Shown here piece by piece: positions 1 to 35,951 of a stretch of 40,006 bases of DNA. Positions within the stretch are counted from its first letter, which is position 1. The number at the start of each line of letters is the position of its first letter. The position numbers were made by a program, and so were the translations under genes. The DNA lies in assembly GCA_003140935.1 (NCBI GenBank), contig PLLJ01000040.1, positions 1 to 40,006 of the forward strand. The letters run 5' to 3'. The notes beneath the pieces are model-generated. The model had not been told where the DNA came from and searched no databases. It saw nothing but the letters and a program-made list of their open reading frames with translations. This DNA comes from Candidatus Omnitrophota bacterium. Lineage in GTDB: Bacteria > Omnitrophota > Omnitrophia > Omnitrophales > Aquincolibacteriaceae.

Positions 1-3000
1 AATGCTTTCGGGACCTTCGTTTACAATTCCGGTCTTGGGAATTCGGATCTGAAGATGGCGGGTCTAGCGAGATTTTATTCCGGGACCGAGCAGGTTGGAT
101 TTGGGGTGATCGATAAAACCGGGAACATCCTGCAAGGGGTGATCAACGGGGTTGGGATATTGTGGTCCGAGTCTGAGGAAACAAAGGCGGCGAATGGCGG
201 GAACGCGGGCTATCTTACGGGCGATCCCAAGAAGATCTTTAACGACGATCCGAGGGCCGGCACGTTCGCTGCTGGGAGCAAGGCGAAGGAACTCGGTGCG
301 GGACGGTATGAAGCAGTCGGGGCGTACAATTTCAGCAAGGCGGGATTTAAGGGAGCGAGTGAGGCGGAGTTGTCGGCGTTCGGGACCTTCGCGGTGAATT
401 TCGGTCTTGGGAATTCGGATCTGAAGATGGCGGGTCTAGCGAGATTTTATTCCGGGACCGAGCAGGTTGGATTTGGGGTGATGGATAAGGCGGGGAACAT
501 CACGCAGGGCGTGATCAACGGACAATTGATCGCATGGAGCAGCAAGGAAAAGGCCAATATTGTTATTAATGCGAAAACGATCGAAAACGTTCGGGGGGAG
601 GTAGCCTCAGTCGATATGAGGGGGGAGAAGGGGGAGCCGCTAGCAAACAAGGCCATCGAAGTTAAAGGGTTTAAGTCCACCGATGTCAATTTTTCAAGAT
701 TGAACGAAAAGGAACAATTGGCGGTCGGTAATTTTGTGGCGGCCTACCAGCTAGGAGTTGCTGGCCTCCTGGTAGCGGGCCAGACAGCTTTGTTGCTTGG
801 AGACAAGTACGTTGGGTCTGGAGTCGTCGATTGGCACGCAAAGGGTGGGGCGCAGGTCACAGCCGCCAGAATCGGAGACACGGTTTATTATTTGAATAAC
901 GGAAAATATGAAGTACTGCCCATGCTTGCGGTAGTCGGGACCTATGACCCGAAGAGCCGTATTCAGACCGTAACGCTGCAGTTGCCCACGGCTTTAAAAG
1001 CGGCACGTCTGACGGAAGTCCAGTCGACGACAAGGTCTTTCCTGCTTAGTCTTTGCGCTACACAGCTTTCCGGCTTGGTTACTATGGAGATCGTTTTTAT
1101 GGCCGGAGCCTTATCGCGGAACGGAAAAATTACCCTTCAGTGGAATAAGGATCATACCAAGGTCGACAGTTATCGTTTCAACGCGACCATCCAACAAAAT
1201 GATCAGACGGAGCGTGTTTTGCCGCTTACGCTCCGCTATGGGGCGGACGGCAAGACATTGCAATACTCCGTCGCCGGATACAACCGCTTTTTCAATGCCA
1301 TCATAAGCGAAATCGATGCGAAGAGTGGCCTCCAGATCATTCGACTTGCCTTTATTTCAACGTCTGCTGGCGGTCAGTTGTCGGCCTTCGAACAAGCCAT
1401 CAATTCGTTGCTGATGAGCACCTACCAGATCGAATTGAACGGAAAAGTGCCGGGACTCATTATCGCTCTATCGGGTATGGCGAAAGGACAGTCTGTCGTC
1501 ACCTTGCAATGGAATAAAGAACGCACCAAGGTCGAAGGCTATTATTTTAAAACATCAATTTCATTGAAAGATCAGCCCGAACCGGTGTTGTTGTCCGTCA
1601 CAGCGCGTTATGCGAAAGACGGAAAAACCCTGATGTTTTCATTCCCCGAGATCGACAAGCAACAAGCCTTTTATGCCAATTTGGAAACCATGGGGAAAGA
1701 CGGCCGCCAGAATGTCACATTACGGTTTGTCCGTGTTGAGGAAAGTAAAAAGCCTCAAGCCGATCTGGGACAGCTCGTGCAACTTCCTTTGGGGGATGTC
1801 CAGAATCGTCTCCAAAACCTGTCCCTGACACCGGTCGCTTTGCGGGAGCAAGTGAGAGGGGATCTCCTGAATTGGCGCCAGAATCTGCCCCTGATACTGG
1901 CCGCCGCAGGTCCAAGCAAACGAGTCTTGTTGCAGCAAGCCGCCAATGCATTCCTGATGAATGCTTATCAGATCCAATTCAGCGAGATCATGCCGGGTTT
2001 TGTGATCGGGGCATCGGGGCAATTGGGCGGAACGGTATCCCTTACTTTGCAATGGAACGCGAGCCGCACCGCCGTACTAACAGCAGCCTTTAATGCGAAA
2101 AATATTTATGCGAATCTGGGACAGGGGGCATTGCCTGCCGGAATGAACCCCGCGGCGATGATCCTTTCAAGATCCGAAGAAGCGCTTACCCGCGTTGTTT
2201 ACAATGTGCAAGATCATACGATCAAGGATGCCACGACCCGTACCGTTTTGATCTCCGCGCAAGCGATCAAATCTGAGGTCTCACTTTTCAGGATTGTGGG
2301 GGCTGAGACGCGCGGTTTCAAATTGACCCTGAACGAAAATCTTGGAAATGGCGGCATCGGTTTAGCGGCCCTTTTGGCTCAGTCCGTTTCATCCTCGGGA
2401 TTGGGGAAATTGTTCAGCATCGACTGGAGTGACGGCAAATATTCAATAGGCATTACGTCACCTCTCGTTGCCGGTCCAGGCAATACATCTTATCAATTCT
2501 TTCATCTTGGCGGGGGCGATGCCAATTCACAGAGGGAACAGATCGCCCTATCGATCTTTGGAAATTGCTACGGGTTTAATCCGGAGGGGATCCAGCCCTT
2601 TGTTTCAAGAGACGGAAAAACACCTCTATCCATCTCTACAATTGTGGCGGATGCCAAGGGCCGTGTCTTAGCCGCTACAACATTGGATAATACCAAGGTC
2701 CTCAGTACTCTCGTCAACAATCAGAATTGGAACGATCCCGTCGCTTTGAGACAATCGATCAATAAGCAGATCGGAAATTTTGATAATGAATCCCTCCAGG
2801 TCCTTAATTATGACCAGAACGGGAAGTGGGTGAAGACTGCTATTATAGATCTTTATGCAACGAGGACGGAAATACCGGCGACGGGTCGCGGGCCTCCGGA
2901 CCTTAACTTCACGATGCGCAACAACGTGTTGGAATTTTTAAGAGAGCCTGGTTCCGCGCGTTTCGGGTTGTTCCTGGATTTAAGAAGCCGTTTCTTCAAT

Positions 3001-6000
3001 TTGCAGCCCGAAAACAAAACGATGGTCGGCACTTACTGTGGCAGCGCGGTTGAAAAAATCGGCAATCTTCTTTACATCCACGATCAAGACTATTCTTCAG
3101 CGCCAACATTCCAGGCTTCCTCAAAGATCTCAGAGAATTTGCTTGTTAGTAATCTTTCCTTCATTTCCTACGCAGCCGGCCTTTCTTCTGCGCGCATTCA
3201 ATTTAATTCCTTGGGGTATGCCGTCAGGGATGCGATAGGGACCGATAAGGATGTGGCCGGGTCGATAAATGTGAGCCTCGAACTGAAGCCCGGCTTGACT
3301 TGGGCCTTCTCCTTGAATCGAGAATTTACCGCTACCGATGATGTGGCTAAGCAAATTATTACCATCAACAATCCCATATCCGGCAAAACCGAGATCAAAT
3401 ATGGAGAACTGGCTCGGGAAAAGTACGGAGCTGCCCTGCATGGAGTGGAAGGTCCGGAAGCCATCTTTTCAAGATCCCTCGGGATTGACGCTAATCTCAT
3501 CCATATGCTGGGCGGCATGGGCATGATCCAGGACGGGCGAATTTTCGATCGTGCCTCCGGGAAAGAGGTCGGTGATACCGTTCATTTTCTGCAGTACAGA
3601 ACTTACGCGGGCAATGCAGGCGACTTAAAAGAATCTATCGAATTTTCTCTATATGGACAGAGAACAATTCACGAAATGATCCATTTCGTTAACGTAAACG
3701 CTCGCACCGGACAGATCAACGAGAATGTTTTTGAGTTGAAATATTTTATAACAGGAGTTGAAAACGAAAAATTTTATGACAATCCAAATAAGTACATAGC
3801 TTTAAGGAGTGATATTTTAAATGCAACCAATTCGGATGTTTTGACGGATGTCGATCGCAACATCACGGTCACAAAGATCGTAGCGACTAACGGCCGGATC
3901 CAATACGCCCTTGGCGGAAACGCCAGTGTCCAATTTGGAAAACAGGAAGGAAGCTACGATGCAGTCGGGTTCACATCGACCTCGAACGGAATGGCATTCT
4001 ATGTGCAAAAAATGGAGACCTCCCAAGATGGAAACAAAGTTGCCGCATGGACCATAGTTTCTGATTACCGGAATGCGGTTGTTATTAACGCGGTCACAAA
4101 AGAGGAGATCAGGAAGATCGAATATGGCAGATGGGAGTCCCTGACCGCTGGGGAGCGAGTGTTCTATGTCGTCGGCACGGTGGTTGTTGTGGCGGTGGCC
4201 ATTGTCGCTACGATCGTAACTTGTGGGGGGGCGGCTGCGGTGGGAGGAGCCTTTGGTATTGGAGCGGGTGCGACGGCTAGTTTTTCTGGGGCCATGGGTG
4301 TCATAACAGCAACCGCGTTGTATAGTGCCGCAGGTTTCGGCCTTGCTGCCGGAGGAGCTTATTGGTTCAACCATGGGGCCAATGCTCTGACTTCTACATT
4401 CCTGGTCAACGCGGGCATTTCGCTCTCGATTGCATCCATCGCTTCGTTGGGGGCGGCAGTGGCAGGATGGGGGGCGGGTTTCGGCGCTCTCCCTTTAACG
4501 GAGGCCATTGGTACTAAAATACTCATGCCGCTGGGGATGCCCGGGCTTTACGCGACTGGCGCGAACCTTGCCCTTACCCTTTCGGGAAATCATGATAAAG
4601 ACCTGCCGTTCTTGAACACTTTACAAGGTGCAATGAATGTTGTGAGTTGGCTCAGTTATGCCGGTCTTGCCGGCGGATTGATGAGTATGGCCTCGAAGGC
4701 GCTTACTGCCGCCGCCGCTAAAGAAATAAGCGCGAAAACAATTAGCGCTGCCGTAACCGGGGCCATCAAAACATCACCGGTCTTCGTAAAATTGTTTGTT
4801 GGAGGAGCTCTCGCCTACGGTATCGGTAGCGGGTTTCAGGCTTATGGGATCAGGACCGCCTGGACTTCCGCATTGATTCAAATAGGAAGCGTTGCGATGG
4901 TCTGTGGATTATTCGGGATTGCTTCCGCTAATGCTGGATTTGCGGCGCTTACCGGCGGCTCCTTTTTTAAAGAAGCCATGACCTTTCTCACTCTCACAGG
5001 TCTGAGCGCCATTCTTGCTGCGCCCGCTTTGGAGAATGGCGCGGCTCTAAGGCGTTTTGGATTTGCGGCAATACTGCTTGGCGTTGGTGCAAGGGCGGCA
5101 GCCGCGTGGGGTGGAAGCTTAGTTCAGGCCTCTGGCAGCAATCTGTTGGTCGCAGTCAATAATTGGGGATTGCTAGGGTTGGGCAGCACATTGGTTGTTG
5201 GATTGACGATACAGCTTGCGCTACCAAACTTCGAGAGTATTCGCGGCATTAATATTTTTGTGGCGAAAATTTTCGCGGGCTTTCTCGCGGCAAAGGCTGC
5301 CATGCTTTTCTTTGGAAATCCGTTCATGTCTTTTGAAGCCAATATGTCCGTGGTCGCGAGACTGAACATGGCGGGATCCCTCCTGGCATGGGGTGGTGCC
5401 GGAGTCGGATTGTTGGGTGCTTTGACACATATCGATGGGCTGAAACAAGTCGGTCTTGGAATGATCCTGATCGGGCTTGCACTGCGGGCCACTGCCGGCT
5501 GGAAAATCATGGGGATGAGGGCGGAAGGTGCCATTGCGGCTGCCAACCAGGTCGAAATGGACCTCGGTCTTACGATCGGCGCGCGGCTATACGCGACGGC
5601 TGCCTTGTACGCAAAAGAAGGTATCAAAGCATTCTGGGAATCCGCGGCCGGAAGCGTCCTGTTTTTCAAGTTCTTCCCGGTCATGATGGCGGCTTCCGGC
5701 ATTGATCACCTCACGGACGCAGTTTTGCATGCTTTTGGAATCGCCGGTGTTATGGTCAAGGAAACTGAACGCGGCTATTTTACCCATCTTGGAAGTGTCA
5801 TCGGCCAACACTGGAAGTTTTCAACCACAGAAGGAGGAGTGTTTGACCGTACCCGGCTCCTTCATGACATCCTTCTCGGCCAGGTCCTTCATCTTGTGGG
5901 GGTGACTTATGCGAGCAGGTCCGGGTTCCTCGGGACCCTGTCCGGGGAACAGGGTGTGGTGAAATCGCTTTTGCGGCTGGGGGCTCCCGAGACCTACGGG

Positions 6001-9000
6001 GCTTATTTCTCGCACACAGGCATACTGCTGACGCGCACTGCCTGGGTCAACGCCGCCGCGAGCAAATTGTTTAACTTTGTCGACAACATGATCATGTTCA
6101 ACCTTTTCATGGCACCGGCGCAGGCTTGGTCAGCGATCCTGAACGGGAAATCGCCGGAAGCGAAGTCGGATTATCTCCAACAGATCATGCACCTGCCCGC
6201 CATGCTGATGGCCTTTTTCTCGATGCCGCTTGGATTGATGGAAGCCACTTTGAGCGGTGATTACCGCCAGTTCTCTGCCGAGTTAAGCCAATACGCGCTT
6301 TTCCTTGTTCCCCAAGCCCGCCGGTATTGGGGCGCGGAAAAGGCTATGGCGGAAACGGTCGCGAATAGCCATGACAACATTCGCGTGACGGAAGCGTATG
6401 AAACAGAGGCTCAAGGAAGATTAGAAGCATCGCCAGATCAAAAAAATGCTCCCGTTTTTTGGAGAGGGGAATTTAGCGAGCAGGTAAAAGCAGCGGAGAA
6501 TTGTCGGGCAAATGGGGACACACAAGGCTGGCTTGAGGCGAACATGAAGGCGAACCGCGCCCAGGAACGCGCGCGTGACTCCTCCAGAAGTGCGGAAGGG
6601 ACTGCGCCAGATGCAGACAGGCCGGCACTCGTGACAGAGAGAGGGAAGTTTGATGAGCAGGTTTCAACTTGGAGGAACGCTCTGGATTCATTTGCGCAAG
6701 GGGCGGTTACGGGGGATTTAAGCAAAATCGTCAATTTTTGGTATGCCGACCTTCTTCGGAATGGAAGTTCTGTCGCGGCCAAAGAGATTTCAATGTTTTT
6801 GGAAGGGACTGGCGATATCAGCAGGATCGAGGGAAACAGTTCAAGAATGATCGACGGACTTTTAAAGAGCGCCGAAACGAAAGGCCTAGAGCCTGCTGAC
6901 AGATTAGGGAAGCTTCAGGAGGCCCTCGGCCTCGCGTTAAAAATCAATGACAAGGCGCGCTATGACCAGATCGCCGAAAAAATACGCCAAATACCGTCGG
7001 GAAAAGATGGTGAACCCGGCGTAACAGTGAAGACATTTGAGGAGGCTGTGGCGAAGGCGGGCCGAAATGTGTCAATAACGCAGGAAGTTCTTTTGGAAGC
7101 TCAGCGGACCGGCGTTCTCGATCAAGCCGGCCGAAACAATCCTTTCGCGCCCCGCGATGCCCTGACCGTCCTTAGGCTTCTTTACTCGGGGACCATGAGT
7201 AAAGACTATTTTTCGCAGCTGGTGAATGCCTTAGCCTCCCGCGCTCTGATCTTTGACTTGAGTAATGCATTTTCGGAGATCGTGAAAAAGAATGATCCGG
7301 CGGCCTTGAGAGTCTTTTTCGAAAAAATCGCAGCTGAATACGATAAAAATGTCCCCGCAGCAGGCCGGCTGAGCAAAATTTTCAAAACTATTCCGGAGGT
7401 TTCAGGGATCAAAGGATTCGACAAGATCGCTGATTTCTCTTTGGTTTCTGAGGACGGTCTTTTCGCCCAGCTTTTTGTCAGAACCTTTGCCGACGCCCTG
7501 AACTTTAAAGTGCTCGACGCAACGCTCTCGGATCCTCTTCAGACGGAAGCTTCGGCCGAAGGGCGGATCATGGTCCAAACGACCTGGGGCGAGATCTCTC
7601 TGGGATCTTTGATGGTGGATACCCTGCTTGCTACGGTTGGCAAGAGCATAAAAGGCTATGTGGACGGGCATATCAAGGCGGCTGCCATCGATAAGCTTAA
7701 TGCCGAACTGGCGAAAAATCCATCCTCAGCCAGAGCCATTGAGATCAGGGAAGCGATCGATCAGATCTCGAAGGCTCCAAGCATTGAAAAACTTTTTGCC
7801 GCTAAACCGGAAGAGGCGGGCCTCGAGACCGTTGCCTACCTACTTTTGTCGGCCCTTGGCATTGGGAAGGAAGGCTACGTGTCGCCGTTCGGAGAGAAGG
7901 GGATCTTTGCTGGGGAGACGTTCAGAAACTCCGTTTTTAGAGATAGCTCGGAGGCTATTGGGCGGATCTATGACTGGATCAAGTCAAAAGAGTTAAAGCG
8001 TGATGGAGAAGGCAAATACGTTGATCCGACCGCACCTGGCCGCTATTTCCGGGTAGTGGAAAATAAGGATGGTTCGGCTAGATTGGAAAAAGCAATCTAT
8101 GAAAGGGCGCCGGATGGAAATATCCGGCAAAGTGAACCTTGGACAGAAGTGATGGTATGCGGGCTGCAGATCGAACGCGCCACAGACCTGACCAATCTCG
8201 AAACTTTCTCGAGATTTTTTGTCACGCAGATCCTCGGTGAAATTGCCGGAAAATTCGAAAAGGTATTTAACAGTATTTTGGATGCGGTAAAGAATGCTCC
8301 GCCCGGCGAGAGCGTATCGCAATCCATTGCCAAAGTGATCGGGCTGGAGATCGGAAATTTAACCCCGGAAGACGCCGCCATCGTGCGGGTTGCGGAAAGA
8401 CTGATTGATGGGATCAATGAGAAAGGCGAAGCAGGGAAAGGCGAAGCTTTGCGAAGTTTCCTTGCGGAGTACAGCAAAGTTTCCAATCAGAAAGAATTTA
8501 TCGCCAATATGCTCTGGGGACTTGTTGAGCGCGGCGGCCGTATTACTTCCGATTTCGAAAGCTTGAGCGCCGCGGATAAGGCGGCAGCCTTTGCCGATTT
8601 CGGGAATTGGGCGATCCTGGCCAAGGTTTGGGAGCAGTATAAAAACTATGATCCGACAGCGAGCGGAGATTTATCCGAAATTTTCTCCAAACCGGCGCTT
8701 CAAAAGATCTCGGCACGACTCCAAACGGACCTCCAAGCAGTCCAGAAGGAGATGGAGTCTTTGTCAACGGAGCCGGACTCAAGGAAGGCATCTGAGCTGG
8801 GGAAGAAGATCGCGGAGAAAATTTTCAAGCTTGCGCAGGATGCACTGCTGGAAAATGGGCAACCGCGAGACAAGATGACTCCCGGCGATGCACAAAAGCT
8901 TGCCCGGGCGTTCGATCTCATGCTTGGGAATGCGATCCTTGAAGGAAAGGGGCTTGAGACCTGGCTTAAGATCTATAGCCGTTTCGATCTTACGATAGTC

Positions 9001-12000
9001 AATAAGCAGCTATCCCTTGGCCTTGACAAAGGGGAAATTGAGAACGCCCAAAAGAGTTATCGGTTCTTTGATCCGCGCCAGTCGCTTAAGACCGAATCGG
9101 AGATCGCTGTATGGAGCACGGCGTTCGCAATACACGCCTACGCTTCGATGAAGGGATGGTTCCACACGGAAGGTCTTCAGCAGAGTCTGGATATCCTGTC
9201 GCGGATGGGGTCTAACGGGGAGAGAGGGAGTATTCTCAACGCGCCGATGGGAGTGGGGAAAACGCTGTTGGGTGCCATTTATGCCACGCTTGAGGGGGTG
9301 AATCTCCTTCTCCTTTCCAATGAGGACCTGGTAGGGCAGTTCATGGGAGACAGCCAGGAGTTTTTTCAGGCCATCTCCGGCCGTAAGGTCGTCAACCTGA
9401 ATGACACGTATCTCAAGGCGTTCAACAACGGTGATTTTTCAGAGATCGATCAACTGAACAGAGATCTGACAGATCCGGAAAAACTCGTTGTTGCATCGAG
9501 GAACGCCATTGCCGAGATCGCCAATAAACTCAAGACGAACGCGCAGTGGAACGCAAAGTATGGGGAATTCATGAAAGCCTTCACATCCGCCTTCAAACTT
9601 TTTGACGAGGTGCACCAATGCGCCGACCCGATGCACTTTATTATCGGCGGGAACACCCGTTACGCCATGGAACTTGCTAATTTTGGGGTGGTCGTCGCTG
9701 CGGCCAAAGCTGCCCTGCGGGGGGATATTTATGAGTTTTATGGGGAAGAACGCGCCTCCGAGCGTTCCGGTCCCCAAAAAGAGAGAATCATGGTTTTCTT
9801 CGAAGCGAAGGATGGGCATTCGGCGAAATATGAAGAATTGATCGGCACAGACCGGGCGGCCATTTTGATCAAGCGGGACGGAAGTCTGGAACATACAACC
9901 ACGAGTTGGGACAAAATCATGGAGATTTTTAAGCAGGCTGAAGTTGGAGGGAAGAGCCTCGTTACCGACGCAATCGCCGAATTTCGAAGCAGCCCGGATA
10001 GAGCGTCGAGTGATCCCCTGTCGAACCGTGAACTGCAATCCATTATCGAAATGACGGTCGTGAATCTTGGGGCGAAGGACCTGGACGCCGCCATCAGGAA
10101 TTACGGCGAACGGACGTTTGGTGCTGAAAAAATGGACGTGGTGGATAACGCTTTCAGGCCGTTTAACCGCGCGGGTGGTGCGGAGGCGGACCGGATCATT
10201 GAGGATACGGCAAAACTCATCGCGGCTGCCATGACAGGCCGGGAGATCTTCGATAAGTTAAGCGATGGAAGAGAGACCAGTCTTGACTTGAAAGCGTGGG
10301 AAAAACGTTCGGCGATCGATCCCGCCACGATCGAGTTCACTTCCACGCTTACGGCATTTAGCATGTTCGATCTGTTCCTGACCTCGGATGGCGTTCGCCG
10401 TCCGATCGGGATGACGGGGACCGCTCTCGGCGTCCGTATCCCTCTCGAGGCTATGATGGGACGGATGGTGGAGGCCGTCAAGCTGGGAGGGGAAACACTG
10501 GCCTATCTTATCGAAATGTTCACCGCAGTTCATGACAAGGACTCATACCATCGTTTTGAAGTGGGCGAACTCCGGAAAACAACAACGACAAAATATGCGG
10601 AAGAGATCGCCAAGGTTATCAAAAATCACTTTTTGGCCGAGGTTGAAGAAAAAGGTAAAACGGTTAAATACGGTCTTTCCCAAAAGGCGGATGAGCTTTA
10701 TAACAACACGATCGCGCATATTGGCGATGCCGATGTCTTAAGACAGGTGCGTAAAATACTTACGGAAGATCCGGAACTCATAAAGAAAGGCACTAAATTC
10801 TTTTTCATCGATGAGAATTCGGATACCCCGGGGCACGACAGCGCGGACGTGGAAGTGAAGACCTTCAGCGACTACGTCAGGGAGTCCAAAGACAACAAAG
10901 CCATTTTTATCATCAACCGGCTTGGGACGGTAGGCCTCAATTATCAGGTGCGTGCCAATTATCTCATGTTTGACTCGGGGCTTACCAACCAGGAGATCAT
11001 GCAGGCATTTTGGCGCGTCGGCCGGACGAAGGAAGCAGGCAGCATGGCGGGTGAGCGCTTTGAGAGTTTCGCGAAAGTTTATTTGGACCATAGCTTTATC
11101 GAAGAACAGCTACGGCCTCTGCTTGGAAATAAGGACTATGGGCAGAAAATGGTGGAGTATTTGAGAGGTCTTGTGGCCGGAAAAGCGACCCGTGATGGCC
11201 TCAGCTGGTATCAGAAAACTGTAGACGGCAAAACGCAATACTTTCTCTCGGAAGAGGGAGGGACAAAGTCCCGGAATGTCGCAGATCTTTTAAATGACGT
11301 GTTGACCCCCGGGAAGGTTCTTTCCCCTGAGGAGACGCTTCTTCTTTCGGTGACGCTGACTTCCTTGGAAGTCGCCGACCGGACGGCAACGGCCCTTTTG
11401 CACCAGTTGTTCACCTTCCGGTTGATGGTGGATCCGATGCGGGTGGCTTTTGAGAGGGCGATTCTTTCCGGCGATCAGGACGCGATCGGTGCCCTCACGG
11501 AACTGGACGCTCTTGTTCACCGCCATATTCGCGAGGGTTATACCGATCTTCAATCATCCAAGAACGCCGATTATCTTGACGGTGAGGCCCATATCAGGAG
11601 CGTTGCCGGGGAACGGGCCGGCAAAACCATCGACGAACTCGGGAAGTTCCTTGAGGGACGCGGAAAAAATCTTCACGAAGGGATCCGTACCGCTCTCCGG
11701 GAAGGCATTGACACTGCGACCGCTCTCCGGAAACTCGTCACGACCGGCGAGCCTGTCGAACAGGATCCGACCATGTTCCAGGGAAATCTCAGGGGAACTC
11801 CCGAGCAAAAGGCTCGGGCCCTGCTTGGGATCGCGGACCGTTTTGCCCCTGACATACTTCCGATAGAGCGCGGTAAAATCTCGGAACCACAAGGCGCTGC
11901 GCGCACGATCAGCGAAGCGGGGAAAATCCGCGTGGAGTCGCCAACATTTTCCGAAAAAAATACGGAAGCAGCGAGAAAGCTTACGCCTCAAAATCCCGTT

Positions 12001-15000
12001 CAATTCAGGTTGGGCGAAGAGGGAACAACAGCGATCATTGATGGGAACCACAGCCTTGATCTTTCGATGCTTTTGCCCGAAACGATCGCTTCGATCCGTG
12101 CCTGCGGGGGATATGGAACTCTTTCGATGAGTGCAAGCGGAACCCTGAGCATTGCCCCGAACATCCAGGCGGCTGTTGAGTTGGGTCATGATTTTAGTTT
12201 TTCGGCCAGCGTGGATGTTCCTGATTCCTTTAAACCCGCAAGTGCCGAAGAACTGACGAGTGTGATGAAGATCCAGAGCTGGATCGAAGCGCACGACTTG
12301 ACGGCGGCGGATATCCAAGCGCTTGCTTCGGTTCCCCCCAAAAAATTGCCGGAGCTTTTGGAGCAACTTGCCGGAGTCCCGGCAGGCGAGCGCTTCTCCA
12401 TTTTAAAAGAAGCCTTCAGTGTCAGATCCGTGTCCGGAACGATCACTCGAACATTAAGAGATTCGGTTTTGCAGGAGATGTCCGCGGAATCCGACCTTGT
12501 AGAGTTGAGCCATCTTGTGCTCGCGATCGGAAATTATTTTAACGTTCAGAAAAAAGTCGCAAGTTGGCTCGAAACAAAAGTTCCCGCGCTGAAAGGGAGT
12601 ATCCCTGTTCGCGGTTTGAATCTCTTCGTGGCTTGGCATGCTTTGCAGAGTTTCCGTCTTTCCCAGGATCCCCAAAAACAGCTTGCCCCATACCTTGCGG
12701 CGGCGCTCGCGGCTTCAAAAAACATCGATGAAGAGGCCCGCAAGAAAGCTGTTCTGGAGATCGCTCCGGCTGCGGATCTGACGGGGTCGCGGTTGACCGT
12801 CCCGCTTGGCATGGGCGATGCGCTCTCGCTGTTGGCCCTGCGGGCAATTCAAACAGGGAATTTTGATCTGGTGAAATCGGGGATCGAAACGATCCAGAAA
12901 ATAGCCTCAGAAAATCCCGAAATTCCGCTTCACGAGATCGTGCAGCTTGCGGCGGTCGAAGGAAAAACCGTTGCGGAAATAGAAACTGCCATAACAAGAC
13001 GGAATTTATTACTCGCGCAATTCAAAGTCGTATCGTTGGTTGAAGTGGCTCATCTGCCGCCTACGCTGCCCGCTCTTACGGGTTTTGCGCAGTTTGACGA
13101 TCTTCTCGGATCCCTCCAGACGCCGCCCGTGCTCCGGAGCCAGCCCGGTGTTTCGGGTCAATATCAGATTGTTGATTCTCTAGGGAGGGTCCGTGTGGCC
13201 TTAAGCGGGACCGGTCTACAGCCTGGTGGAGCGGCTCAGTACCGGAATGGCCGGTGGTTCTTGAGCGTGAAACAGGGTGGAGAGACCCGCTACGAGATCG
13301 AAGTGATGAATAATCGAACATGGATCAACGTTCTCGGGGAAGGCGGCGTGGTCCTTGAGAAGCTTGTCCACAGCGGCGACGAAGTCGTTTTTCAGAATAT
13401 GGGGAGCCTCGCGAATGGTGATCCGGTTCGGATGACGATCGCTGAAGATCGAGTGCTGACGATCGGAACAACCCCTCTCACAACGGGTGGATCCGTTGTG
13501 AAATTCATGGCGGTCAAGGACAAGGTCACGGAACTTGACGAGGTCATCGATACGGCAAGAGTTTCGGCGCGCTATGCAAAAGAAGGATCTTTTGAGGAAG
13601 CCCTCAGCTTTAATCCTTCATACAAGAAATACCGCAATGCGGCCACCGTTTTGTTGACGAAGGACGGGCATCAGCAAAACTTGCCCGGTCCCGCGTATTT
13701 CGGTCATGACGGGCGGGTATTTTTGGGCGAAGAAAGCGATCCTTCTAATTTTGCCATGGCGGCTGTGCCGGGTGTAATTCCTCCATTTGCGGAGAATGCG
13801 CCTGAAACGGTGATGATGCCCTATGAGGCGCGCGTCAATGCGAAGAACGAAAGAATGAGCGCCCTCCAACTCCATGTACTGAGTTTTGTTTACCGGCGCT
13901 TGACTCCAGACCAACAACAGAAGTTCGTCGCTTGGTGGCAGGCGAACAGGCGGACACTTAAAGATTTCGACGTATCGAAAGAAATAAGCAAATGGCTTGG
14001 CGACAACGGTATCACAAATGTTTCGATGGATCGCTGGGAGCAGGTCTCGAGGGAATTGAATGCGAGAGGATCCCTTGACCGGGGTATTTTGGTCAGGGCG
14101 GCGGGACCGCAAATCGACGGTGAAACGACCCATACGATGGTCCGGACGGCTCTGGCTAAGATCGGAGCTGCTGCAGGCAAAGAAGCCATCCGTAGTCTCT
14201 ATGAGGATCCTTTAGAAAGAATTATCGAGCGGGTTTTGAATGCGGATCAAAAGTTATACGCTGCGGCCAAGAGCGCCGGTTTGATCGGAAAAGACAAAAA
14301 GCCAATGCTTGCGGATTGGGAGAAATTCTTTAAGGCGCATCAGACTGAAATTTCCAAAAAGGATTACCAGGCTTTCGAATGGCATTCTCAACTGGTTGGG
14401 TCTGTTGTTGAAGCCGGGAAGGCATCCGGCGCAACTGAGGAAGAACGGCGCATCGCCGCGATGGCGCCTGTTTGGGGCGATCTGCTGGTGTATGAGCGGC
14501 CGGCTTATTTTAAAGATCATGGCGCACTTGCCGCGGCTACCCAAAGACTTCAGGAGGCCAAGAGCGAACGGGAGATCACACAGGCGGCAGAAGAGATATC
14601 CAAGATCCTAACGGCCGGATTTATGAAGGCGCGCCGGTCCAAACCCGAAAATGAAGCTGGTTTCCGTAAGGAATTAGCCCGTCTTATCGCTCAAACGCGG
14701 GAGGAAAATCCTTCCGCCTCGGTGGATTTCTCATATGTCAGATCCTCTGAGATCGAAACGATCCCGGCGGTTGAAGCGCAAGTGCAGCAAGTGTATCAAA
14801 CGAAGCTAGCAGCTCTTTTGGCGCACGAGACCACGCCTGTATCCGAAGAAACTTTCCGGGCAAGGGAAGCCCAGGCCATGAAGGAAGCTCGTGCGGAGAT
14901 TAACGCGACATGGAAAAAAGCGCATGGCTATCGTGATTATGAGATCCCCGTCTTTCGCCTGAATGGGGACGCGGCCAAGCGGTTGGGGAATTATTGGAGC

Positions 15001-18000
15001 TTGGTGAATGAAAAATGGGTAAGAACCTCCGGCGAAGAGGTCATGGCCCGAACGGATTTTGAGGCGTCGGCGGGCCTGTTTTCTCTCATGGGGGTCATGG
15101 TCATAGACGAGAGCTGGTTTGAACAATCTTTCGGCCATGCGGAAAAGCATCTGATCTTTCCGCGGCTTGGACTTTCCTTTGAAGAAAAGGGCGGCAAACT
15201 GCGATTCAAAGATTCGGATATTCGTCTCGAAGAAATCATGACCTTTATTTATCAGGTGATGACAAAGACCATCGACTGGGAAAATGGAAAGACTTACGAT
15301 ATTGAAACGCTCTATGGCAAATATCTCGAATATTCCAGAATGCCGCGGCTTATGAACGCCAAGGATCTGAAGAGCGCTATGGGGGCCGTTCTCTATCTCT
15401 TCCAGATTTTTGATCCCGAAACGGTCCAAAACATCATCCGCAACAGCGAAAAAGTCGAGGACCTGCTCGGCTGGCATAGTTTGTCGCCAGACCAGCTCAG
15501 AGATGAATTAAAAGCGGCGAAAGCCGGTTCCAGCACGGCAACGCCGAACCCGGCGACCGCAACGGCCGCAGAGGTGAAAGCGTTCGCGTATTCGGTAATA
15601 GCCAGAACAGCTCCCGGCATGTCGCTTGAGGATGCATTGAAGAGCTCACCGGCCGTTCAAGACCTGCAAAAGCTTTTCGAGGGGATCCTGAGTGAGGCTC
15701 AAGGAATCACAGACCCGACTCTCCAAGTGGCGAGATTCGAACTTATCGGGCAGTTCTTGAAGGGCAGTCAAGCAGACCGTCTTGCTTGGGGCATCGTTGG
15801 GGGGCTTGCGGAGCAGATCTTGACCGCCAACGTCGCGACCTTGGAGGCTTTGCGCGCCTATCTTCAGACGAGCGGGGTCATTGTTCATCCCGAGACCACG
15901 GCGAGCCAGGATGCGTCCGGCAGGTCCGTGATCAACGCTTCGTCGGTCAAATCATTGGTGGATGCCGCCATGTCACGGGCGGAAACCCGCGGGGAAGCGC
16001 TCGATAAATTACTTAATCAGAGCGGTATCACCGTGCGGGTTTGGACGGCTTATTATTTGTTCCGGGACCATTATGCAGAGCCCGGGATTCAGTCGGTCCT
16101 GGCTCAGTTCGATACGGGTGCAGGCGCGTACGACAATCTCGTAAAACTTGCGGGAGCGGTACTTCAAGTCTATCCGGGGGATGAAAACGGATCGATCAGC
16201 GAACCCATTTTGCGCGGGATCTTCGAAGCGATCGCAAAACGTACGGATGGGGACGTGCAGGCCCGGATCAGCTTGCTGGACCGGATCCTGAAAGAGGATC
16301 AGACCAAGGAGCCGGACGGTCTGAGCCGGACGATCGCGGCGAGGGTATGGTCGGCCATGATGTGGCAGTGGGAGAGCAATGGAGCGTTAAAAACATATCT
16401 TCAAAGCAACTATCTGAAGGCGACGCCCACAACGCTGGCCGATTTGATCAAAGGCATTCATACCGGCGCGATCCCCAATCAGGAAAGCGTCTTCGCGTTA
16501 ACCGAACTTCCGAGCGCAGAGGTCCTTCAGATGCAAGCAGGACTGCCGTTTGAATTGATGGTCACCGTTCCTTCCGGAAAAGACCAGCTCAGTAACGATC
16601 CCAATGTTAAAGCCTATGTGGTGTTAGGGGCGCGTCGCACGGGGTATTCCTCTGAATCCTCGGCTTATGACCTTTCCTTCGGGCTTCATAACCATCCGAC
16701 CCATAAAGAAGCGGGTACGGTTCAGGTCCTGCCGTCCGGAAAGTGGGCGGGTTACGACGGGCTCTTCCAGGCGGCAAAGAAAGAGAACGGCAAGTTTGTC
16801 CGTAAAGCGAACCTCTTTATCAATACAGAGCTCGGGATCACGAGGTATTCCGTCGTCAATGACGGTGAGCCGTTCCAGGCGGGCACTTTGACCGTCGAAG
16901 GTCAGCCGTCCATTCCTGTCACAAAGGAGATGGTCGAGGAGTATAACTCCGGGGCTACGAGCGGTTCCGGAAAGTTGGCAAAATTCGCGCTTGCGGCGGC
17001 CCGGGCCCAGAAATCCTTTACGATCGATTTTGCGGATGGTGATCTCCAGGTTCGTTACGAATTCAAGCCGTGGGACGTTTTGGCGAGGGGCGACACGCTT
17101 TCAGGGTTCGTCACCGATAACAGCGGAAAATCCATGATCCAGCCGATTGCGCCGGAAGTTCTGGCCATTCGTAGCCTTTTCGGGAAATTACAAGGGACGG
17201 ACCTGAACGGATATCGATTGTATTTCATGCAGGACCGCGGCCATTTTATGCTTGTAGGTGCGGATGGAAAACTGGTGCCGGATACGGAATTGAGCGTTCT
17301 GCCAACCCTTGAAAATGGCCATCTGATCTTGGAAACGGGGGTTGTCCTACCGTCAAGCCTCCAGAGCCAGGGGATATGGAGCGCTTTTGTGAGAAAAGTT
17401 GCCGAGGCGGCTCCCCAAAATGCCGAAATCATGGGAAGTATTGCGCATGTTCCGACATTGATCGGATTGACCGAAGCGTTGCCGGATGCATGGCGGTCGC
17501 AAGTTCAAGCTGACCTTGATGAGATCGCCTCTTTGGCTAAGGCGAACGGGATTGATCTCAATCTTCCGATCTTCGGGCAGACGGATACTAAGTCGAAAAA
17601 TCCAGTAGAAAATCAGATCAAGGCGCTGCAGTTGAAATTGAAAACAAATCTTATAAAGTTTTTCCGAGAAGCATCGCCGGCAGAAAAAGCAGGTGTTGAA
17701 CAAGCCGCAGCTTTGGGCATCGGGTTGGTCGGCGCAAAAATGAAAGCTCTGGGCGTGGACAAAGTCAGCATAACAGGCAAATTTATTGACGGCGCGGACC
17801 GGTTGGTCTTCCTCATGCCCGCCCAGCCAGCGCGTGCGGAAGTGCGGACGGTGGTAACGCCTGCTGCGACGGCACCCGTTATGCCAGCGCGCGCGGAATT
17901 GCGGCCGGCGGAGGCGAAGGTTGTCCAAGCTCGGGAGGCGGCGCAAGAGGCGGTGAAGCGATTGACGCCAGCGCAACTCCACGGTTTATCGATGCACAGT

Positions 18001-18918
18001 TTGCTGCGGTCGATTGCGGAGCTTCAGGTGCAAGTGAAGACGGTGGAGCAGGACCGTCGGCTTATGGGTAAGAGCGCCTTTATTGACGATGCTACGGGCG
18101 AGGTGGTCCTGAACCAGGCGGTCCTGGATCGCGCGGCCCCTGATGAGTTGAAAGATATTCTTATCCATGAAGCCGTGCATGGCGTCCAGCGCATTGAAAT
18201 GCCCGAGATTCTCGCGGAGGCCCGCCGGATCGACGCTGAAATGCAGGCTTACTTCCTGATGGCGGAGTGCATGGCCGAAGGCCCCTTGAAAAACCAGATC
18301 CGTGCGTTGCAGGCGATCGCACTTGGGAACGTCCGGTTCGACGATGAAAAAATGCGAAGGGATGTGATCCAGATCGAGGAACAGATTTTTGTGGGGTCCG
18401 TAGATTTTCAGGCCGGGATCGAGTATCTGATGAACCGGCTGAATGGACAGGTCTATACTCTCGGGAACTCACCGCTCAATGGGCTGATGGGTGTGAAGCC
18501 TCTTAAGAATGCGAAAGAGCTTGGCGCGGAAATTGGCCGCAAATTCAGCAAGGAACCGAAAAATCTTAACGAACACAGCATCTTTGTCGTGTCCAAGACC
18601 GATGCGGATGATGCTGAGATGCGCGCTGAGATCGGGAAGTTGCAGGGCTGGGGTTACGCGGTTTTCATATTTGACGAGGCGGATTTCGCGAAGCTCTTTG
18701 GTGGTAAGGTGAATCCTTATGAGGCCATCATGGAACTGGTGGATCTGGCTGCGGCACTTGGTAAGACCCAGTTCGTAAACCTGATGCATGAATATGAAGT
18801 CGATCCGCAGGACAAAGATAATAAGTTCTACTCAGTAGCAGCCTGCCTGACCAACGGCGTGATCAAGGCTCTCATCAGCGAAATGCTCACTCAGAAGCAA
18901 GTCGCCGTCGCCGCCTAA
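1..18918 (+). CDS. Giant multi-domain membrane protein with SecA/SF2-like ATPase and C-terminal HExxH motif (5' partial)
   Basis: The frame is open from base 1, so the true start lies outside the window; the ATG at 55 is inside a repeat and is not a credible start. At least 6,305 residues are encoded. In order: a 124-residue tandem repeat (4-539); beta-rich repeats each carrying LQWN (near 1132, 1501 and 2044); a long stretch of strand-like sequence to about 4100; about a dozen hydrophobic segments (4150-6340), rich in Gly and Ala; helical charged sequence; a motor ATPase (about 9100-11300) with Walker A APMGVGKT at 9241, Walker B DEVH at 9604, a SecA-type GMTGTA at 10408 and a QAFWRVGR helicase motif VI at 11002; a further long alpha and beta tail; two PARAE(V/L)R motifs (17827 and 17884); and HEAVH at 18166-18180 followed 24 residues later by Glu in an ExQAY context, the gluzincin layout. 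Giant proteins with membrane blocks are known from Omnitrophota, where attachment and predation roles have been proposed. Substrate and topology are not known here. Confidence 0.85.
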   Translation, partial: NAFGTFVYNSGLGNSDLKMAGLARFYSGTEQVGFGVIDKTGNILQGVINGVGILWSESEETKAANGGNAGYLTGDPKKIFNDDPRAGTFAAGSKAKELGAGRYEAVGAYNFSKAGFKGASEAELSAFGTFAVNFGLGNSDLKMAGLARFYSGTEQVGFGVMDKAGNITQGVINGQLIAWSSKEKANIVINAKTIENVRGEVASVDMRGEKGEPLANKAIEVKGFKSTDVNFSRLNEKEQLAVGNFVAAYQLGVAGLLVAGQTALLLGDKYVGSGVVDWHAKGGAQVTAARIGDTVYYLNNGKYEVLPMLAVVGTYDPKSRIQTVTLQLPTALKAARLTEVQSTTRSFLLSLCATQLSGLVTMEIVFMAGALSRNGKITLQWNKDHTKVDSYRFNATIQQNDQTERVLPLTLRYGADGKTLQYSVAGYNRFFNAIISEIDAKSGLQIIRLAFISTSAGGQLSAFEQAINSLLMSTYQIELNGKVPGLIIALSGMAKGQSVVTLQWNKERTKVEGYYFKTSISLKDQPEPVLLSVTARYAKDGKTLMFSFPEIDKQQAFYANLETMGKDGRQNVTLRFVRVEESKKPQADLGQLVQLPLGDVQNRLQNLSLTPVALREQVRGDLLNWRQNLPLILAAAGPSKRVLLQQAANAFLMNAYQIQFSEIMPGFVIGASGQLGGTVSLTLQWNASRTAVLTAAFNAKNIYANLGQGALPAGMNPAAMILSRSEEALTRVVYNVQDHTIKDATTRTVLISAQAIKSEVSLFRIVGAETRGFKLTLNENLGNGGIGLAALLAQSVSSSGLGKLFSIDWSDGKYSIGITSPLVAGPGNTSYQFFHLGGGDANSQREQIALSIFGNCYGFNPEGIQPFVSRDGKTPLSISTIVADAKGRVLAATTLDNTKVLSTLVNNQNWNDPVALRQSINKQIGNFDNESLQVLNYDQNGKWVKTAIIDLYATRTEIPATGRGPPDLNFTMRNNVLEFLREPGSARFGLFLDLRSRFFNLQPENKTMVGTYCGSAVEKIGNLLYIHDQDYSSAPTFQASSKISENLLVSNLSFISYAAGLSSARIQFNSLGYAVRDAIGTDKDVAGSINVSLELKPGLTWAFSLNREFTATDDVAKQIITINNPISGKTEIKYGELAREKYGAALHGVEGPEAIFSRSLGIDANLIHMLGGMGMIQDGRIFDRASGKEVGDTVHFLQYRTYAGNAGDLKESIEFSLYGQRTIHEMIHFVNVNARTGQINENVFELKYFITGVENEKFYDNPNKYIALRSDILNATNSDVLTDVDRNITVTKIVATNGRIQYALGGNASVQFGKQEGSYDAVGFTSTSNGMAFYVQKMETSQDGNKVAAWTIVSDYRNAVVINAVTKEEIRKIEYGRWESLTAGERVFYVVGTVVVVAVAIVATIVTCGGAAAVGGAFGIGAGATASFSGAMGVITATALYSAAGFGLAAGGAYWFNHGANALTSTFLVNAGISLSIASIASLGAAVAGWGAGFGALPLTEAIGTKILMPLGMPGLYATGANLALTLSGNHDKDLPFLNTLQGAMNVVSWLSYAGLAGGLMSMASKALTAAAAKEISAKTISAAVTGAIKTSPVFVKLFVGGALAYGIGSGFQAYGIRTAWTSALIQIGSVAMVCGLFGIASANAGFAALTGGSFFKEAMTFLTLTGLSAILAAPALENGAALRRFGFAAILLGVGARAAAAWGGSLVQASGSNLLVAVNNWGLLGLGSTLVVGLTIQLALPNFESIRGINIFVAKIFAGFLAAKAAMLFFGNPFMSFEANMSVVARLNMAGSLLAWGGAGVGLLGALTHIDGLKQVGLGMILIGLALRATAGWKIMGMRAEGAIAAANQVEMDLGLTIGARLYATAALYAKEGIKAFWESAAGSVLFFKFFPVMMAASGIDHLTDAVLHAFGIAGVMVKETERGYFTHLGSVIGQHWKFSTTEGGVFDRTRLLHDILLGQVLHLVGVTYASRSGFLGTLSGEQGVVKSLLRLGAPETYGAYFSHTGILLTRTAWVNAAASKLFNFVDNMIMFNLFMAPAQAWSAILNGKSPEAKSDYLQQIMHLPAMLMAFFSMPLGLMEATLSGDYRQFSAELSQYALFLVPQARRYWGAEKAMAETVANSHDNIRVTEAYETEAQGRLEASPDQKNAPVFWRGEFSEQVKAAENCRANGDTQGWLEANMKANRAQERARDSSRSAEGTAPDADRPALVTERGKFDEQVSTWRNALDSFAQGAVTGDLSKIVNFWYADLLRNGSSVAAKEISMFLEGTGDISRIEGNSSRMIDGLLKSAETKGLEPADRLGKLQEALGLALKINDKARYDQIAEKIRQIPSGKDGEPGVTVKTFEEAVAKAGRNVSITQEVLLEAQRTGVLDQAGRNNPFAPRDALTVLRLLYSGTMSKDYFSQLVNALASRALIFDLSNAFSEIVKKNDPAALRVFFEKIAAEYDKNVPAAGRLSKIFKTIPEVSGIKGFDKIADFSLVSEDGLFAQLFVRTFADALNFKVLDATLSDPLQTEASAEGRIMVQTTWGEISLGSLMVDTLLATVGKSIKGYVDGHIKAAAIDKLNAELAKNPSSARAIEIREAIDQISKAPSIEKLFAAKPEEAGLETVAYLLLSALGIGKEGYVSPFGEKGIFAGETFRNSVFRDSSEAIGRIYDWIKSKELKRDGEGKYVDPTAPGRYFRVVENKDGSARLEKAIYERAPDGNIRQSEPWTEVMVCGLQIERATDLTNLETFSRFFVTQILGEIAGKFEKVFNSILDAVKNAPPGESVSQSIAKVIGLEIGNLTPEDAAIVRVAERLIDGINEKGEAGKGEALRSFLAEYSKVSNQKEFIANMLWGLVERGGRITSDFESLSAADKAAAFADFGNWAILAKVWEQYKNYDPTASGDLSEIFSKPALQKISARLQTDLQAVQKEMESLSTEPDSRKASELGKKIAEKIFKLAQDALLENGQPRDKMTPGDAQKLARAFDLMLGNAILEGKGLETWLKIYSRFDLTIVNKQLSLGLDKGEIENAQKSYRFFDPRQSLKTESEIAVWSTAFAIHAYASMKGWFHTEGLQQSLDILSRMGSNGERGSILNAPMGVGKTLLGAIYATLEGVNLLLLSNEDLVGQFMGDSQEFFQAISGRKVVNLNDTYLKAFNNGDFSEIDQLNRDLTDPEKLVVASRNAIAEIANKLKTNAQWNAKYGEFMKAFTSAFKLFDEVHQCADPMHFIIGGNTRYAMELANFGVVVAAAKAALRGDIYEFYGEERASERSGPQKERIMVFFEAKDGHSAKYEELIGTDRAAILIKRDGSLEHTTTSWDKIMEIFKQAEVGGKSLVTDAIAEFRSSPDRASSDPLSNRELQSIIEMTVVNLGAKDLDAAIRNYGERTFGAEKMDVVDNAFRPFNRAGGAEADRIIEDTAKLIAAAMTGREIFDKLSDGRETSLDLKAWEKRSAIDPATIEFTSTLTAFSMFDLFLTSDGVRRPIGMTGTALGVRIPLEAMMGRMVEAVKLGGETLAYLIEMFTAVHDKDSYHRFEVGELRKTTTTKYAEEIAKVIKNHFLAEVEEKGKTVKYGLSQKADELYNNTIAHIGDADVLRQVRKILTEDPELIKKGTKFFFIDENSDTPGHDSADVEVKTFSDYVRESKDNKAIFIINRLGTVGLNYQVRANYLMFDSGLTNQEIMQAFWRVGRTKEAGSMAGERFESFAKVYLDHSFIEEQLRPLLGNKDYGQKMVEYLRGLVAGKATRDGLSWYQKTVDGKTQYFLSEEGGTKSRNVADLLNDVLTPGKVLSPEETLLLSVTLTSLEVADRTATALLHQLFTFRLMVDPMRVAFERAILSGDQDAIGALTELDALVHRHIREGYTDLQSSKNADYLDGEAHIRSVAGERAGKTIDELGKFLEGRGKNLHEGIRTALREGIDTATALRKLVTTGEPVEQDPTMFQGNLRGTPEQKARALLGIADRFAPDILPIERGKISEPQGAARTISEAGKIRVESPTFSEKNTEAARKLTPQNPVQFRLGEEGTTAIIDGNHSLDLSMLLPETIASIRACGGYGTLSMSASGTLSIAPNIQAAVELGHDFSFSASVDVPDSFKPASAEELTSVMKIQSWIEAHDLTAADIQALASVPPKKLPELLEQLAGVPAGERFSILKEAFSVRSVSGTITRTLRDSVLQEMSAESDLVELSHLVLAIGNYFNVQKKVASWLETKVPALKGSIPVRGLNLFVAWHALQSFRLSQDPQKQLAPYLAAALAASKNIDEEARKKAVLEIAPAADLTGSRLTVPLGMGDALSLLALRAIQTGNFDLVKSGIETIQKIASENPEIPLHEIVQLAAVEGKTVAEIETAITRRNLLLAQFKVVSLVEVAHLPPTLPALTGFAQFDDLLGSLQTPPVLRSQPGVSGQYQIVDSLGRVRVALSGTGLQPGGAAQYRNGRWFLSVKQGGETRYEIEVMNNRTWINVLGEGGVVLEKLVHSGDEVVFQNMGSLANGDPVRMTIAEDRVLTIGTTPLTTGGSVVKFMAVKDKVTELDEVIDTARVSARYAKEGSFEEALSFNPSYKKYRNAATVLLTKDGHQQNLPGPAYFGHDGRVFLGEESDPSNFAMAAVPGVIPPFAENAPETVMMPYEARVNAKNERMSALQLHVLSFVYRRLTPDQQQKFVAWWQANRRTLKDFDVSKEISKWLGDNGITNVSMDRWEQVSRELNARGSLDRGILVRAAGPQIDGETTHTMVRTALAKIGAAAGKEAIRSLYEDPLERIIERVLNADQKLYAAAKSAGLIGKDKKPMLADWEKFFKAHQTEISKKDYQAFEWHSQLVGSVVEAGKASGATEEERRIAAMAPVWGDLLVYERPAYFKDHGALAAATQRLQEAKSEREITQAAEEISKILTAGFMKARRSKPENEAGFRKELARLIAQTREENPSASVDFSYVRSSEIETIPAVEAQVQQVYQTKLAALLAHETTPVSEETFRAREAQAMKEARAEINATWKKAHGYRDYEIPVFRLNGDAAKRLGNYWSLVNEKWVRTSGEEVMARTDFEASAGLFSLMGVMVIDESWFEQSFGHAEKHLIFPRLGLSFEEKGGKLRFKDSDIRLEEIMTFIYQVMTKTIDWENGKTYDIETLYGKYLEYSRMPRLMNAKDLKSAMGAVLYLFQIFDPETVQNIIRNSEKVEDLLGWHSLSPDQLRDELKAAKAGSSTATPNPATATAAEVKAFAYSVIARTAPGMSLEDALKSSPAVQDLQKLFEGILSEAQGITDPTLQVARFELIGQFLKGSQADRLAWGIVGGLAEQILTANVATLEALRAYLQTSGVIVHPETTASQDASGRSVINASSVKSLVDAAMSRAETRGEALDKLLNQSGITVRVWTAYYLFRDHYAEPGIQSVLAQFDTGAGAYDNLVKLAGAVLQVYPGDENGSISEPILRGIFEAIAKRTDGDVQARISLLDRILKEDQTKEPDGLSRTIAARVWSAMMWQWESNGALKTYLQSNYLKATPTTLADLIKGIHTGAIPNQESVFALTELPSAEVLQMQAGLPFELMVTVPSGKDQLSNDPNVKAYVVLGARRTGYSSESSAYDLSFGLHNHPTHKEAGTVQVLPSGKWAGYDGLFQAAKKENGKFVRKANLFINTELGITRYSVVNDGEPFQAGTLTVEGQPSIPVTKEMVEEYNSGATSGSGKLAKFALAAARAQKSFTIDFADGDLQVRYEFKPWDVLARGDTLSGFVTDNSGKSMIQPIAPEVLAIRSLFGKLQGTDLNGYRLYFMQDRGHFMLVGADGKLVPDTELSVLPTLENGHLILETGVVLPSSLQSQGIWSAFVRKVAEAAPQNAEIMGSIAHVPTLIGLTEALPDAWRSQVQADLDEIASLAKANGIDLNLPIFGQTDTKSKNPVENQIKALQLKLKTNLIKFFREASPAEKAGVEQAAALGIGLVGAKMKALGVDKVSITGKFIDGADRLVFLMPAQPARAEVRTVVTPAATAPVMPARAELRPAEAKVVQAREAAQEAVKRLTPAQLHGLSMHSLLRSIAELQVQVKTVEQDRRLMGKSAFIDDATGEVVLNQAVLDRAAPDELKDILIHEAVHGVQRIEMPEILAEARRIDAEMQAYFLMAECMAEGPLKNQIRALQAIALGNVRFDDEKMRRDVIQIEEQIFVGSVDFQAGIEYLMNRLNGQVYTLGNSPLNGLMGVKPLKNAKELGAEIGRKFSKEPKNLNEHSIFVVSKTDADDAEMRAEIGKLQGWGYAVFIFDEADFAKLFGGKVNPYEAIMELVDLAAALGKTQFVNLMHEYEVDPQDKDNKFYSVAACLTNGVIKALISEMLTQKQVAVAA
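4..539 (+). repeat. 372-bp in-frame tandem repeat within the giant gene
   Basis: The sequence starting near 7 recurs at 379, exactly 372 bp (124 codons) later. Bases 30-110 and 402-482 are identical over 81 bp, and similarity fades after about 530. The first copy may be preceded by more copies outside the window. The near-identity at DNA level, including third codon positions, implies a recent duplication or gene conversion. Confidence 0.9.
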
Positions 18919-22190: not shown

Positions 22191-22366
22191 CAGGGCACCC
22201 GGCTTTCTATTAAACAAAATATCGAGAAGCCAGTCCCAATACTTATCAATTTCCGGATAACGGAAATTGGGGCTGCCCAAGTCGCCATCCATAAAAACAA
22301 AATAAAGACTTGGGCTGTGTTGTCCTGATGGACCCTTGGGAAAATAGAATTAATCATCAGGGCACC
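22188..22366 (-). repeat. 167-bp structured segment flanked by 12-bp direct repeats between batA and batB
   Basis: CATCAGGGCACC occurs at 22188-22199 and again at 22355-22366. Each copy overlaps a key signal: the right copy spans the batA stop, the left copy the batB ATG. If the 167 bp were removed, batA and batB would overlap stop-to-start in the usual operon manner. The segment contains two perfect inverted repeats: a 9-bp hairpin with loop GATAA (22247-22269) and GCCCAAGTC/GACTTGGGC (22275-22283, 22307-22315). It may be a small mobile repeat or a structured leader controlling batB translation. Confidence 0.55.
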
Positions 22367-25152: not shown

Positions 25153-25170
25153 AATTCAAGCCCTGCAGGA

Positions 25171-26160: not shown

Positions 26161-26228
26161 AAAATTCTCCTTTAATTCACAGGTTGATCAGTTTGTGGCG
26201 GACGGGATGACAGGGATCATTCCAAAAG

Positions 26229-27089: not shown

Positions 27090-27116
27090 TGGATGCCTCC
27101 TTAACCTTAACGCTTC

Positions 27117-27199
27117 CGGGGAACGCGGAACGGGAAACGCCCGCGTTAACCGCCGGACGTTCCCCGCCTGGCGTTCTTTCCAGGCCCCTGTGGGGTCCC
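27117..27199. other. Stem-loops in the dnaK to bat spacer
   Basis: CGGGGAACG (27117-27125) pairs with CGTTCCCCG (27158-27166), and CCCC-TGT-GGGG lies at 27185-27195. No T-run follows on the minus strand. The structures may terminate dnaK weakly, stabilise an mRNA end, or be part of a leader for the bat operon. Confidence 0.4.
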
Positions 27200-27208
27200 C
27201 CGGTTTCT

Positions 27209-35889: not shown

Positions 35890-35951
35890 CCTGATAGACC
35901 GTGGTGAAATAAAACCATTCGAATAATTAAAATTTGCCTCCGGAGGTAACA

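Follow-up and report, generated by a model that had tools for sequence, protein, structure and literature searches.

Omnitrophota giants have been described as membrane- and adhesion-related proteins with few recognised domains, among them adhesion and carbohydrate-related ones (PMC10066038, PMC12057145). One of these papers (PMC10066038) gives them a place at the surface or in adhesion, not a role as injected effectors. The other (PMC12057145) also cites the West-Roberts et al. 2023 preprint on giant genes. Since few domains are recognised in them, the functions of the Omnitrophota giants are an open question. Two further systems are close to the locus described here. The polyvalent proteins encoded by phages and conjugative elements unite SF2 with zincin domains and are delivered into recipients (PMC5512222), and the effectors of Amoebophilus include SecA-like helicase-related domains (PMC3482391). 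Neither SecA nor a helicase was mentioned in the giant-protein papers searched, including PMC10066038 and PMC12057145; the West-Roberts et al. preprint lay outside that search, so an earlier notice is possible. We describe a giant Omnitrophota protein that carries an SF2-type motor, probably of SecA descent, and we consider where this motor might work. SecA itself is the motor that drives proteins through membranes.

Giant ORF, motor motifs and C-terminal domains

The window, that is, the whole stretch of DNA analysed (40,006 bp), is an entire contig (C38) of a genome of 2.4 Mb that is assembled into 55 contigs. Because the window is the whole contig, the giant open reading frame (ORF) at its start runs off the 5′ contig edge and lacks the gene start. 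Of this giant Omnitrophota gene, the window includes the 3′ part, and the N-terminus and any signal peptide of this copy lie beyond the contig edge. The repeats at the broken end presumably belong to an exported repeat region. Elsewhere in the window, MoxR, DUF58 and von Willebrand factor A genes (a Bat-type operon) and a DnaK gene are located at 20133–29143 on the strand opposite the giant gene (−), and 35934–37037 (+) encodes a periplasmic binding domain into which a ligand-gated ion channel domain is inserted (SBP_bac_3 and Lig_chan), similar to prokaryotic glutamate receptors. The features of the giant ORF are listed in Table 1.

Table 1. Positions of the features of the giant ORF in the window
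Feature	Position	Strand	Remarks
Giant ORF	1..18918	+	6,305 aa, 5′-open; C-terminal domains common to other Omnitrophota giants
146-nt repeat, two copies (4–149, 376–521)	4..521	+	90% alike to each other; located at the 5′ break
Gly/Ala-rich hydrophobic cluster, aa 1381–2080	4141..6240	+	about 9 strong Kyte-Doolittle segments, number approximate
Conserved hydrophobic domain, aa 1745–2144	5233..6432	+	35% identical in three other giants
SF2 motor, probably of SecA-derived lineage, aa 3015–3980	9043..11940	+	includes helical C-terminal extension
Walker A / motif I, APMGVGKT, aa 3081	9241..9264	+	relatives: MGGGKT
Walker B / motif II, DEVH, aa 3202	9604..9615	+	followed by ADPMHFIIGG
Insert of about 264 aa between motifs II and III	9616..10407	+	where SecA has its preprotein cross-linking domain; profile alignment spans insert
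Motif III, GMTGTA, aa 3470	10408..10425	+	
Motif V, GTVGLNYQ, aa 3642	10924..10947	+	context NRLGTVGLNYQ; family TNQRGLTGFDYQ; SecA TNMAGRGTDI
Motif VI, QAFWRVGR, aa 3668	11002..11025	+	
Domain C1, aa 4800–5180	14398..15540	+	degenerate HAEKH here (15136–15150); relatives HEELH/HEKLH/HEYKH
Domain C2, aa 5298–5719	15892..17157	+	44% identical to same-genus giant with true SecA core
Zincin-like domain C3, C-terminal, aa 5940–6305	17818..18915	+	
Zinc-binding motif of C3, HEAVH, aa 6056	18166..18180	+	
C-terminal Ala-Ala	18910..18915	+	[A/S]A-COOH tail common to other giants

The original prediction named the five motor motifs of Table 1 as standing in proper order, and this was borne out: all five share one frame of the ORF in helicase order, and an ordered motif pattern with spacing limits gave one match in the real protein and none in 2,000 shuffles. 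A motor search of 58 related genomes detected relatives in ORFs of 1,296–12,698 aa from seven other genomes. SF2 motifs I, II, III, V and VI occurred in order, with their catalytic residues conserved, in the window and in the relatives; at 23–31% identity, relatives in giant ORFs of other Omnitrophota keep MGGGKT, FDE(V/I)HQxxDPMxFIxGG, G(M)SGT, motif V as TNQRGLTGFDYQ, and QSxGRVGR. As judged from this conservation in such distant relatives, the window ATPase looks functional. A motor profile search covering 384 genomes from the phylum gave matches in 14 of them, with weaker matches to ORFs of, for example, 25,048 aa (G139) and 5,554 aa (G239), and the motor is conserved in giants from other families. 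The 25,048-aa frame, which contains a distant relative of the motor and has a normal cysteine content, fills a 75,147-bp contig (G139:C111, L058–L061) and is open at both ends. When the genome contig collection was scanned with the single motor sequence, nothing was found; an alignment-based scan of the same collection returned Omnitrophota matches only, and the phage, plasmid and viral collections contained no motor relatives.

The motor lies between the Gly/Ala-rich hydrophobic cluster and the zincin-like domains. The "dozen hydrophobic segments" of the original prediction correspond to the strong segments of the cluster and two further Kyte-Doolittle segments near the ORF N-terminus, the exact number being uncertain. 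The protease-like end that it proposed was confirmed, as HExxH of domain C3 was present in all ten aligned relatives and a downstream glutamate in nine of them, which is the gluzincin motif. Profile matches of C3 were weak and showed resemblance to SprT/M48 (SprT-like, 0.0037), and the secondary structure of a low-confidence AlphaFold model (three sequences, pLDDT 52.8) fits a zincin core. Of 384 genomes from the phylum, 15 contain C3. These 15 belong to the same taxonomic order, and, except for one small fragment, C3 always lies in ORFs of 1,670–39,033 aa.

A tail of [Ala/Ser]-Ala ended 15 of 18 ORFs of at least 1,500 aa (L102, L110, L192, L196, L200 and others) versus 1 of 327 ORFs of 250–999 aa, among ORFs from the contigs fetched (Fisher 2e-22, uncorrected for relatedness). 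Nine of the 15 ORFs carry domain C3 and six have other ends; over the terminal 140 aa, no homology between the zincin-type and the other giants was shown beyond the last residues. Since the tmRNA tag of the same genome likewise ends in Ala-Ala, the tail is possibly a degradation or processing signal; a sorting signal is also possible. One of these ORFs (L200), on contig C4 of the same genome (8612–18442, −), is a 3,277-aa giant with a signal peptide and IQDAH near its start, in which no SF2 motifs were found.

Lineage of the motor and the sister giants

The Pfam, NCBIfam and PDB searches of the motor gave nothing decisive. No SecA Pfam match (SecA_DEAD, P-loop_SecA or SecA_PP_bind) over cut-off was obtained with the window copy or its family, and the window copy gave no match to the preprotein cross-linking domain (PPXD). 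The SecA signature T-[NQ]-M-A-G-R-G-x-D-I is absent at motif V, and direct profile comparison of the seven-member family (A1) with the SecA of its own phylum gave 2.7%. Because the Pfam and motif V tests failed, the window motor should not be filed as SecA. It is also not the SecA of the cell itself, as a separate canonical SecA of 896 aa is encoded on another contig of the same genome.

A SecA_DEAD search detected clear SecA domains in two giants from the same genus, the ORFs G001:C59 (9,521 aa) and G005:C47 (39,033 aa), in which SecA_DEAD, P-loop_SecA and PPXD were all over the Pfam cut-offs. The motor of G001:C59 scored 143.6 bits with SecA_DEAD and matched PDB SecA structures at 4e-49. Its SecA core sits upstream of C-terminal domains that are 44% (aa 5298–5719) and 35% (C-terminal domain) identical to those of the window giant, and the G005:C47 giant also has the C-terminal domain in common with it. 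The latter ORF is 5′-open at 74879–191977 (−), with its SecA-type motor at aa 33940–34737. Across 47 genomes of the order, ten ORFs of 1,176–39,033 aa contained a SecA PPXD over cut-off. A second group of giants shares an N-terminal module without a Pfam match, has signal peptides, and carries either SNF2-like motors, which are intact in G028:C22, G009:C35 and G009:C115, or SecA-like motors (G038:C15, G038:C33 and G026:C117), some of which look degenerate (G038:C15). The motor of the second giant of G001:C59 matched none of the sets.

A link between the window motor and SecA was obtained through intermediates. Profile comparison connected A1 to G054 (98.8% over 484 columns) and to a distant set (99.7%), and G054 to the SecA-like giants (97.5% over 459 columns). 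After distant members had been added to the window family and eight giant-borne relatives to the SecA-like side, the combined comparison with SecA and the SecA-like giants gave 97.8–97.9% (E 4.7e-13 to about 6e-13), with the whole motor aligned, including the large insert at the PPXD position. Reversed and block-shuffled controls gave at most 0.3%, and control families gave 63–87%, with one domain each. On the basis of these sequence comparisons, the window motor and the SecA-like giant motors are probably related, though far diverged. The term "SecA-type" used in the original prediction is supported by descent only, through the intermediates and the SecA cores of the sister giants, and not by direct comparison or Pfam match.

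Site of action and alternative readings

Sec-type signal peptides, judged by eye, start two complete relatives, G002:C21 (12,698 aa) and the second giant of G001:C59 (18,673 aa). In most of the signal-peptide-bearing SNF2/SecA-like giants, no hydrophobic cluster separates the motor from the signal peptide that precedes it. Cysteine is nearly absent from the window motor (1 of 966 residues) and from everything downstream of it (3 of 2,325, about 0.1%), as it is from the motor (0 of 963) and the downstream part (0 of 2,332) of G031. The medians in a sample of proteins of the same genome, classified by a crude rule, were 1.09% for the cytoplasmic class and 0.34% for the exported class, and canonical SecA cores mostly have 2–7 cysteines per 800 aa. 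There are counter-cases to this argument, namely the distant giant of G139 (0.87%) and a control set of DEAD-box helicases of the same phylum (0.12%). Because of the cysteine depletion and the signal-peptide-bearing giants that have a motor and no preceding cluster, export of the motor is slightly favoured over a position on the cytoplasmic face of the producer. Omnitrophota may thus export molecular motors. Outside the producer, such a motor would find ATP only inside a target cell.

The reading we prefer, to which we give an even chance, is that the window encodes a surface-associated giant with an exported, effector-type motor of the SecA lineage that acts in a target cell together with its zincin domain. 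The whole giant would leave the producer by means of a Sec signal peptide, which would be missing from this copy along with its 5′ end, and its long N-terminal part would keep it associated with the surface. The hydrophobic cluster would help the C-terminal part into the target cell, where the motor would spend the ATP of the target to move a polymer and the zincin domain would process the giant itself or its targets. The polymer would be a polypeptide, as SecA ancestry suggests; the SNF2 motors in related giants keep nucleic acid open. No delivery partner was found beside the complete giants, the neighbours of which are ordinary chromosomal genes. A more specific form of this proposal, which we consider unlikely, is that exported giants bring along a translocase of SecA descent: once prey or host has been contacted, the motor beyond the target membrane would pull a polypeptide, perhaps the cargo of the giant, inward on target ATP, and the motor cassette would be swapped among a SecA-type, an SNF2-type and a third, Omnitrophota-specific type.

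The original prediction suggested a self-contained export or uptake machine, which is unproven. In its membrane-anchored form, the N-terminal part would lie outside, sent there by the signal peptide; the chain would come back through an odd number of helices, and a cytoplasmic SecA-like motor would drive export or uptake. The SecA ancestry and the PPXD-containing SecA cores of the sister giants are consistent with such a machine, as are the hydrophobic cluster directly upstream of the motor and the supply of ATP in the cytoplasm. We nevertheless regard it as doubtful, because the motor and C-terminal part nearly lack cysteine, the motor of G026:C117 and G038:C33 precedes the cluster and directly follows the signal peptide, and G028:C22 and G009:C115 have no cluster at all. 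The predicted number of helices also varies from 2 to 12 among the relatives, and the scores of a membrane-topology HMM differed by about one log unit, which is neutral. The original prediction had proposed such a topology calculation and taken an ATPase outside the cytoplasm as evidence against itself; by that standard, the indirect signs of an exported motor count against a cytoplasmic one.

The exported motor could instead be an SF2 effector directed at nucleic acid, with an HsdR/ResIII- or SNF2-like engine whose substrate would be DNA or RNA, in the manner of polyvalent proteins, and with its SecA resemblance due to convergence. The sequence matches that bear on this reading are those that speak for an SF2 motor in general. 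The window copy itself had no SF2 profile match. The SF2 assignment of the original prediction is supported by the motif order and by weak matches in other members of the family, namely Helicase_C (5e-4, in 4 of 7), T1R_D3-like (8e-5) and ResIII (0.002). Compared with the window sequence or the seven-member family, SecA was not significantly above other SF2 families (78% vs 74% for SNF2 and 71% for HsdR). Foldseek also returned SF2 proteins (RapA, MDA5, ISWI and DEAH), at low TM-scores and with no SecA among the top 50, from an AlphaFold model of the motor built on five sequences. As that model is poor (pLDDT 51.5, pTM 0.37) and the TM-scores were low, this result was not used to choose a subfamily. 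The SNF2 motors of the related giants fit a nucleic-acid effector as well, as does the 70.8% obtained for A1 against HsdR/ResIII. We consider such an effector rather unlikely, because these matches are limited to the second RecA domain and the SecA-like alignment covers the whole motor and its insert. For SNF2 in particular, profile comparison gave 8.8%, and up to 74% only over the second RecA domain, and the SNF2-rel_dom profile had no match in the same genome at E ≤ 1e-10.

A chimaeric or decaying ORF with an inactive motor, either a relic or an assembly artefact, would fit the truncation at the contig edge beside repeats, the loss of HExxH from domain C1 in this copy and the degenerate-looking motor of giants such as G038:C15; it is highly improbable, as a single frame stays open over 18.9 kb with all catalytic motifs retained and independent genomes show the same domain order. 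An AAA+ ATPase of the VCP/CDC48 type was rejected as next to impossible, since the phmmer match to a VCP-like ATPase (E 1.9e-8, 62 residues) and the Pfam AAA score of 17 bits, below cut-off, reflect the P-loop region alone and fade in the family profile (best E 0.002), and the family conserves SF2 motifs III, V and VI.

Comparison with known systems

A conserved motor slot, occupied by a SecA core, an SNF2 motor or a derived motor, together with a C-terminal protease-like domain and a common tail, provides a testable mechanistic handle on the Omnitrophota giants. An exported motor would be a rare instance of a SecA-lineage engine that operates away from its producer cell.

The window motor resembles SecA in the order of its motifs, in GMTGTA, in the insert between motifs II and III and in the whole-motor profile alignment through intermediates, and its DEVH...ADPMHFIIGG is comparable to SecA DEVDSxLIDEARTPLIISG. 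It differs from SecA in having DEVH for DEVD, in the absence of TNMAGRGTDI and of a SecA Pfam match, and in being embedded in a giant chain. The protein as a whole resembles the Omnitrophota giants of Seymour et al. 2023 (PMC10066038) in phylum, in the great length of the ORF, in its hydrophobic segments and in its few recognised domains; the surface or adhesive placement of those giants counts against an injected effector.

Like the polyvalent proteins (PMC5512222), the giant combines an SF2 helicase-type ATPase and a zincin-like metallopeptidase in one long chain, with action presumed to follow delivery. Polyvalent proteins are encoded on phages and mobile elements, whereas the giants described here have signal peptides, hydrophobic clusters and ordinary chromosomal neighbours. 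The Amoebophilus effectors (PMC3482391) belong to another phylum and are aimed at eukaryotic hosts, and they are likened to the giant by description; by that analogy, they would offer a precedent for SecA-like ATPase domains in effectors.
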